Positions 27,630-30,405 of a DNA stretch of 64,000 bases are shown here, piece by piece (position 1 is the stretch's first letter; each line of letters starts with the position of its first letter). Below the pieces are notes generated by a model. It searched no databases and was not told the origin of the DNA. It saw only the letters and a program-made list of their open reading frames with translations. The translations under genes and the position numbers were made by a program. The DNA is from an uncultured Gemmatimonadota bacterium (GTDB lineage: Bacteria; Gemmatimonadota; Gemmatimonadetes; Gemmatimonadales; Gemmatimonadaceae): NCBI GenBank assembly GCA_903910555.1, contig CAIVZZ010000001.1, positions 62,001 to 126,000 on the forward strand, in the 5' to 3' direction.

Positions 27630-28444
27630 GACGCACCTGCAAACGACCCGGCGCGGAAAATGCGCGCCGCGTTGCGCCAGCGAATGTCTTTCAAATCCTC
27701 GGCGCTGAGCAGTCCGGTCGTTTCGAGCGCTCGCAATTTCGCGAGCCCGGTGCACATCGTGATGTCACTCCCCCACAGCAGCCGCCGCGCGCCAAGCGCC
27801 TTGATCGCATCGTCGAGCATGCCGCGATCAACGCCGCTCCCGGAAAGATCAGGATAAATATTCGGCGAATCTTTCAGCGCGTGGAACGTATGCGCGTAGT
27901 CGCCGCCGCCACCGATATGCGCCAATATGAAAATGACTTTCGGATGTCGTACAGCGAGACGCGCGAGATCTGCGCCGTCGGAGATCTCCTGATTCGGCCA
28001 CTCACGGCGCCGGTGCTGCCAGATATGATGCAGCACGGGAAGGCCGTGTTTCGCCGCGAGTGCACAGATCGGATCCAGTAGCGGATCGTCCGCACGCCGG
28101 CTCGCGAGCAGCTTCACGCCGATCGCGCCCTTCTCAACGCAGCGCTCGATCTCCTTCAGCGCGTGAGCAGTGTGATTGGGATTCACGGTCACCATCATCG
28201 CGACGCGCTTCCCCTCGCTCTTGCATAGCGCGACCATCGCGTCGTTCCCGAGCGTCACGTCATCCGGCGACGGGAAATATGTCGGCGATCGAAAACCGTA
28301 CGTACCGAGTATCGACGCCACGTGGCACGTGACGCCAATCTTGTCGCCAGCACGGAACCGCGCGGCATTCACGTCCTGCCAGTCGCTGCGCCCGCACAGC
28401 TGGTGCAGAAAATGCGCGTGACAATCAATCAGCGGTTCCGTCAC
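27626..28444 (-). CDS. Amidohydrolase family protein (amidohydrolase-2/TIM barrel)
   Basis: A 272-residue hydrolase with the canonical first metal motif DCHAHF (residues 7-12). [21 protein letters not shown] and the terminal LLWGSDI aspartate follow, as in ACMSD/amidohydrolase-2 enzymes that hydrolyse or decarboxylate small cyclic or aromatic compounds. The substrate is unknown. The GTG start overlaps the stop of the upstream chimeric ORF whose tail is an aminotransferase, suggesting an original aminotransferase-amidohydrolase-amidohydrolase operon. Confidence 0.9.
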
Positions 28445-30405
28445 GCCTCGTGCTGCTCCTGGCGCATCGCAACGAACGCGTTGCTCGCCGCGGCCTCGAT
28501 ATCCACCAATGCGTCCTCATCATGCGCGAGTGCCGCGAAGTTGTATGCCCCTCTTTTAAAGAGAGCGCCGTGCTCTGCGGCTAGCGATACAAAACGCTGT
28601 TCCGCCGCCTGCGATTCGAATTTCATGAACCACATCGCGTCGATCCCATGCTGCGTGATTCCGGACAGCCCGCTCGTCTTCAGCGCACCAGCGACCAGCT
28701 CGCGCATCTCGCCGCCGACGCGCGAGATGTCATACGACGGGTACTTTGCAGCCGCCGCTTTGTGCCAGAGAATGCGGTCGGGGAATCCGGCGTCGCCGAG
28801 GTTTTTCCACGCGACATCGTGGAATGCCTTCGAGCGGTGCGCGGTACCCATTCCGTCGATCTGTACAACAATGAATCCGAGCTCGGCGATCGACTGCATG
28901 CTGAGCCACGATGCAAAGGTCTTCGGAACGAACGACCCCTGCGGGCCCGCATAAATATTTTCGATTACCGGGTACTTCTTTTTCGGATCGAAATTCGACG
29001 GGCGCACGATCACGCCCCAAATGTCTGTCGTGCCATCGCGCGCTTTGGCGACAAACACTTCCGGCGCGCGCCAGCCGGTCTTCACCAGATCCGATGCATC
29101 AGCCTTCTCGAGTTCCATGATCACTTTTGCGTCGCTCGTGCGGCGCAACTGCGATATCGGCGCGAGCGCAACCGTCGACCAGGTATCGACGTAGTACTTG
29201 TTGTCCGGTGAGAAGGTGACCGTGTGATATCCGTCCGCATCGGTCAGCGGTGTGAGGTCGCTGCCGTCGAAGTTGATCCGGTAGTACTGCACAAAATACG
29301 GATCCTGCTTCGCGACCATGCCGCCGGCAGCGAAAACAATTTGCTTGGCGGCCGTGTCCACGTACTGTACGGCGCGCACCAGCCAATTGCCTTTCGTGAT
29401 CTGACTCTTGATCGCGCCAGTTGTGCCGTCGACCATATAGAGGTGCGCCCAGCCATCGCGTTCAGACATCCAGATGAATGACTTGCCATCGTCGAGATCG
29501 AAGCGAAACTGACGCCCCGAATCGGCGAGCCCGACGTTCGCGCGGCGGTAATCGATAAATGTTTTCGAAGTCTCGGTCATCATCGAGCGCGCGTGCCCGT
29601 TCGACGCATCAACCTCGATCACTCTGTAGACCTGATGCCCGCGCTGGTTGTACTCGAACGTGAATGCGTGACTGTCGCGCCGCCATTCAATGCGGGAGAG
29701 ATCGTACGGGTTCGGGAAGAGCTCTGGATCGACGACCGTCTCCCGCTTCGTCGAGACATCAAAGAACGACGGCTGCTGCAAATCGAGCACGTCGCCGGGC
29801 TTCTGGTAATAGCGCTCGAAAGTTTTTGGCTGGAGCTGGTCGGCGGGCGACGACTCCACATAGCGCACCATTCGGCGATAGCCCGGCCGGACGCGGTACG
29901 CCGCGATCATCCGCGAGTTCGGCGACCAGACAATGGACTGAAAAGTGTACGGATTTCCCTCGGACCCGTCTGTGCTGATCCGCGCGCCTTCAGCCGAACC
30001 CGCCGGACGCACGGCGATGTTGAAGTTGTCGATGTATGCGAGAAGTTTTCCGTCGGGAGACGGCCGCGTCGCGTCTGCTCCGGCGGCCCCGCGGCCGCCG
30101 CCACCACCGCGCCCGCCACGTCCGCCGCCGCTGACTGCAATCGTATCAGCGGCCGTTGCCGCGCGCTTCTCAAGCGTCGCGGCATCTACAACCACAGCGG
30201 CCGTACCGCCGCCCCTCACGCTCTTGCGATACCAGAACTTCGAGGTTCCCTCGATCCACACCGGAACATCGGGCGAGTCGTAGACCAGCGGCGTGTACTT
30301 CTTTTGCAGTGCCTGCGCGCGCTGGTAGTCGGCCATCGTTCCCTGCGCATGTGCAATTGCAGGAAGAACAAGGAGCATCGTCGCGAGCCGCATTCTGTTC
30401 ATCAT
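28441..30405 (-). CDS. Chimeric ORF: S9/DPP-IV peptidase N-terminus fused in frame to a class III aminotransferase C-terminus
   Basis: A 654-codon ORF. Residues 1-~564 are a secreted S9 peptidase: signal peptide to AHAQ, Gly/Arg-rich insert (93-109), DPP-IV beta-propeller, and the start of the alpha/beta-hydrolase domain up to SYDISRVG. There the sequence should continue into the nucleophile GxSxGG motif but does not. The last ~90 residues instead match the C-terminus of a glutamate-1-semialdehyde-type aminotransferase ([19 protein letters not shown]). Ser, Asp and His of the peptidase triad are all missing, as are the PLP-binding parts of the aminotransferase, so both activities should be lost. 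The junction is near 28714. The ATG at 30405 or 30402 follows a CGGGA sequence. Confidence 0.8.

Follow-up and report, generated by a model that had tools for sequence, protein, structure and literature searches.

The closest described counterparts of the two gene pieces at this locus are the bacterial S9B dipeptidyl peptidases of the DPP-IV type (2d5l, 5yp1, 2ecf) and the class III aminotransferases resembling glutamate-1-semialdehyde 2,1-aminomutase (GSAM; nearest solved structures, 5i92 and 4e77). The hybrid reading frame described here has the same propeller region and hydrolase-domain start as the former but is cut five residues before the catalytic serine, with the aspartate and histidine absent; its tail corresponds to the C-terminal part of the latter but, of 401 residues, retains just the final 90, without the PLP lysine and cofactor site. 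The aminotransferase family was assigned from intact relatives, whose scores do not reach the cut-offs that NCBIfam sets for true GSAM. For the kind of event that could join such pieces, the verified spontaneous deletions of Salmonella LT2 offer a comparison, with a deduced junction homology cut-off of ≥8 bp for true deletions (PMC3411829). Our locus resembles those deletions in the apparent loss of a contiguous stretch and possibly in a short repeat at the junction, but differs in that it is a cross-species comparison of an assembled genome, with an imperfect repeat. A literature search for the locus in Gemmatimonadota returned nothing relevant.

The window (the whole 64,000-nucleotide stretch analyzed here) is C1:62001-126000 of a 3.20-Mb, 32-contig, 100%-complete genome, labeled G000. 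The comparison set includes at least 17 further genomes from the same genus; the relatives are mostly Gemmatimonadaceae MAGs, and chief among them here are G012 (MAG fen_1231, with the locus on contig C83 = PMYN01000033.1), G002, and G010. The relevant features of the window are as follows.

28714..30405, minus strand: S9/DPP-IV peptidase front, residues 1-564 (signal-like N-terminus, beta-propeller region, and first ∼60 hydrolase-domain residues), ending SYDISRVG
28714..28722, minus strand: probable deletion junction, within R-V/I-G codons common to both parent genes, where the blastn alignments overlap
28441..28713, minus strand: last 90 residues and stop of a class III GSAM-like aminotransferase, recognized by tail identity to relatives
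27626..28444, minus strand: amidohydrolase 1, intact, GTG start (Amidohydro_2, E 6.9e-31; 88 to 89% identity to G012/G002)
26874..27629, minus strand: amidohydrolase 2-like gene, intact (82 to 84% identity to G012/G002), named by resemblance, with no family returned by a Pfam search

The hybrid is a 654-codon open frame on the minus strand that runs from an ATG at 30405 to a TGA at 28441 with no internal stops. Within it, Pfam places a DPPIV_N propeller, as in S9B peptidases, at residues 115 to 414 (E 2.7e-44) and a partial Peptidase_S9 match at residues 502 to 564, covering profile positions 6 to 67 of 213, the first 62 residues. The peptidase part is 84 to 86% identical to the intact genes of G002 and G012. 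The remaining residues, 565 to 654, matched no model when searched alone against Pfam and NCBIfam; they are 86 to 89% identical to the aminotransferase C-termini of the congeners G002, G010, and G012, compared with 47 to 55% for other aminotransferases of the genus and family. The fusion stop (28443-28441) overlaps the GTG start of amidohydrolase 1 at 28444 in a GTGA, and the same overlap occurs in G012, where the aminotransferase ends at L068:7423 and the amidohydrolase starts at 7420; the coupling is therefore ancestral and older than the proposed deletion. An earlier note, made from the letters of the window, had described an in-frame peptidase/aminotransferase fusion at 28441-30405 and a stop coupled through GTGA to an amidohydrolase gene, and both are correct, the former to within a few bases. 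Its reading of S9/DPP-IV sequence up to SYDISRVG followed by an aminotransferase C-terminus agrees with Pfam and with the congener alignments. Pfam assigns the congener parent proteins to Aminotran_3, and their nearest solved structures are GSAM.

The two parent genes are separate in G012, G002, and G010, whose DNA is ∼80% identical to the window. In G012 both are complete on one contig and one strand.

C83 55235-57724 (L067:9235-11724), same strand as the aminotransferase: intact peptidase, 829 aa
C83 72218-73423, same strand as the peptidase: intact aminotransferase, 401 aa, Aminotran_3 (Pfam)

By blastn against pieces of three relatives, window positions 28715-43613 are colinear with G012 C83 46001-57093 and window positions 15334-28722 with C83 73142-85942, and gene order agrees with the window on either side. 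Between these two blocks, from C83 57093 to 73142, G012 carries ∼16 kb. This stretch starts with the 209 codons that complete the peptidase, continues with eleven genes, and closes with the opening ∼311 codons of the aminotransferase. The genes of the G012 interval are listed below.

NAD-dependent epimerase
355-aa protein without a family
206-aa membrane-like protein
GH38 glycosidase (best NCBIfam model, mannosylglycerate hydrolase, matched far below its cut-off)
SRPBCC-like protein (sequence reading only)
GHMP kinase
OppC-like permease
OppB-like permease (sequence reading)
SBP5 binding protein
heparinase II/III-like protein
278-aa protein that resembles carboxypeptidase-regulatory-like proteins (no NCBIfam matches)

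The interval has the look of a locus for catabolism and transport, with genes for handling sugars and peptides and an Opp-type transporter. The comparison of the locus in relatives, which the earlier note had called for, thus finds the parents separate and complete, with the interval between them. That note had also proposed that a deletion had cost a peptidase gene its 3′ end and an aminotransferase gene its 5′ part; the relatives' loci uphold this in kind but not in size, since the note put the loss at roughly 1.5 kb or more and the interval is about tenfold longer, at ∼16 kb with eleven whole genes. We consider it likely that the hybrid frame is a deletion scar, in which a single ∼16-kb deletion joined the remnants of two genes.

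The interval is not peculiar to G012. In G002 the homology begins in the peptidase and extends over at least 13.8 kb, and that genome is unbroken at the place corresponding to a two-base N gap in G012 (C83:60843). Its aminotransferase side is covered by G010 and L095, and the more distant G003 and G009 also carry OppBC, SBP5, heparinase, aminotransferase, and both amidohydrolases together. The interval is thus of long standing in the genus, and the window has lost it. The reverse polarity, in which the fusion came first and the relatives acquired the 16 kb inside it, has nothing in its favor beyond the fact that insertion and deletion are formally symmetric; the genes are complete in the relatives, the catalytic residues of the peptidase are invariant in ten homologues, and separate, whole homologues of both genes occur throughout the family, which is decisive and leaves that reading a negligible chance.

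The sequence between the breakpoints is gone from the 100%-complete G000 assembly. With the two halves of the interval as DNA queries, we recovered from G000 the flanks, of 94 and 109 bp, plus three short weak matches, and nothing else. Protein searches of G000 did not find the heparinase, although as a positive control tblastn found the same protein in relatives at 51 to 79% identity; for SBP5 the sole match was a 27% paralog, and for the aminotransferase the matches were its own tail and 26 to 36% paralogs only.

Several further differences among the relatives lie in or beside these genes. The peptidase of the window is ∼53 residues shorter near its N-terminus than that of G012; as a candidate second lesion this was ruled out, as G002 is without the same stretch, and it represents ordinary variation. 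The intact G012 peptidase carries near its C-terminus about nine GSGA repeats (GAGSGAGSGAG...) that are absent from the G002 orthologue, as though a tandem repeat had expanded there. In the window, the two S9-type proteins (30040-30130 and 32277-35018) have N-terminal glycine/arginine-rich stretches whose length varies among relatives. G012 and G010 have ∼2.2 kb extra between amidohydrolase 2 and a beta-glucosidase-like gene (L068:8990-11179), which in G012 appears to hold an M1-peptidase-like gene; the window (26870-26874) and G002 are without it. In G009 (C8, L073) and G003 (C5, L075) the aminotransferase/amidohydrolase block adjoins a different S9 peptidase, ∼35% identical, so distant congeners again have an S9 peptidase next to the block, though a different paralog.

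Comparison with the intact proteins also locates what the hybrid has lost. The G012 peptidase residues S625 (in the motif GGSAGG), D698, and H730 are invariant in ten intact homologues and lie in a stretch that aligns with a DPP-IV of solved structure; following established knowledge of S9 peptidases and GSAM, we take them to be the catalytic Ser, Asp, and His, and K251 of the G012 aminotransferase (FGKA) to be the PLP lysine. The last G012 peptidase residue in common with the window is 620, five residues short of S625, and the whole Ser-Asp-His triad of S9B peptidases, all of it past residue 620, is missing from the fusion. The tail starts at about residue 312 of the aminotransferase, downstream of K251, and the PLP-binding lysine and cofactor domain are likewise missing. 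The loss of both active sites, suspected from the window alone, is borne out against the intact relatives (triad past residue 620, K251 before ∼312), and the hybrid product is most probably without peptidase or aminotransferase activity. AlphaFold was set aside as a sign of an unfoldable half-hydrolase: the fusion had a mean pLDDT of 58, with residues 406 to 565 mostly <50, and the intact G012 peptidase, run as a control with a ten-row alignment, scored 47.9, lower than the fusion, so the comparison is uninformative.

A hybrid without either catalytic center could nonetheless have been recruited as a new fusion under selection, for example as a propeller binding protein, a propeller without catalysis that carries the aminotransferase tail, or a leader whose translation keeps amidohydrolase 1 expressed. 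We searched 179 family genomes with a 109-residue probe spanning the junction. Among the matches listed, the only one that ran end to end was in the window's own genome, and the strong matches elsewhere covered one side or the other of probe residue ∼55, with small overhangs; contigs of one-per-species genomes gave the same one-side-or-other split. The fusion was thus found in no other genome among the matches listed from the 179 searched. Within that scope its architecture is not that of a conserved two-domain family; a fusion conserved in relatives, which the earlier note had said would speak against a scar, was not seen. We also computed pairwise dN and dS for both halves of the fusion and for five neighboring genes. 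The dN of the peptidase part is 0.055 on the window branch (0.056 for G012 and 0.046 for G002) and that of the tail is 0.047 (0.039 and 0.046), so branch dN/dS gives no excess on the window branch in either half, and the frame has no stops or frameshifts. Amidohydrolase 1 and the amidohydrolase 2-like gene have dN/dS of 0.08 and 0.10, ordinary constraint, though the branch may for the most part be older than the deletion. The stop-free frame, the unraised dN in both halves, and the conserved GTGA coupling would all suit a functional fusion, but an undecayed frame is equally expected from a recent event, both catalytic centers are gone, and the fusion occurs in one genome only among the matches listed; the low AlphaFold confidence over residues 406 to 565 does not decide the matter, as the intact control was low as well. 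We regard a selected fusion as very improbable. For the deletion scar, since dN is not raised and the relatives' dS is near 1, the event would be young relative to that divergence or the frame still constrained, and a young event is the simpler of the two.

The junction itself bears on how the pieces were joined and on whether the joint is real. Peptidase DNA homology stops at 28714/28715 and aminotransferase homology begins at 28722 (blastn), the two G012 alignments have eight window bases in common, and both parent sequences encode R-(V/I)-G at the joint. The G002 parents share 9 of 11 bases there, a value reached by 0.04% of random position pairs. The G012 parents share 7 of 11, which 1.9% of random pairs reach, and for this reason the microhomology argument is weak. 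An assembly or library artefact would produce the same arrangement if an assembler or a chimeric DNA molecule had linked distant sites while the 16 kb was lost or never binned; assembly error is the main alternative that the earlier note had named. The region does not assemble easily, given that the G002 and G010 contigs also end inside these genes and that the relatives are mostly MAGs, and the sequenced sample was possibly a strain mixture. A chimera formed in the library, or a strain present as a minority, may also lie behind the joint. Against this, there are no Ns near the junction, which sits inside a 327-kb contig, and no 16-mer of 28651-28780 recurs within the window; a k-mer assembler would need a longer common word than the 7 to 9 of 11 matching bases of the parents, and the absence of such a word at the joint counts against misassembly. 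Moreover, the joined ends are in G012 order and orientation and just 16 kb apart, where random chimeras would link arbitrary sites, and the missing genes are on no other contig of the 100%-complete genome. An artefact is therefore unlikely, though it is the most credible of the alternatives, and we infer a biological deletion, fixed in the organism. The junction sequence fits a short-homology deletion, without being proof of one.

The ancestor of the window would thus have carried an S9/DPP-IV peptidase gene and the eleven genes, followed by the aminotransferase and two amidohydrolase genes, which share the strand of the peptidase. A ∼16-kb deletion would have run from within the hydrolase domain of the peptidase to a point in the final quarter of the aminotransferase gene, plausibly by slippage or end joining at the microhomology of a short imperfect repeat, and the remnants would have been joined in frame by chance (one in three). 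Because the joint is in frame, ribosomes starting at the peptidase start codon would still finish at the GTGA overlap. The fusion may therefore still be translated and keep coupled translation of amidohydrolase 1, and it is a possibility that this coupling helped to retain the open frame.

A scar of gene remnants left by a deletion is ordinary in kind, and this one leaves general views unchanged. It is an example, recognized through relatives, of the loss of a gene block, and it illustrates how automated annotation could mislead, in that the hybrid would be named an S9 peptidase though it is without the cleavage residues. For the organism, the predicted consequence is a species that lacks what the block provided, namely Opp-type uptake and the heparinase-like, GH38, and aminotransferase functions, and that would retain the two amidohydrolase-type proteins.
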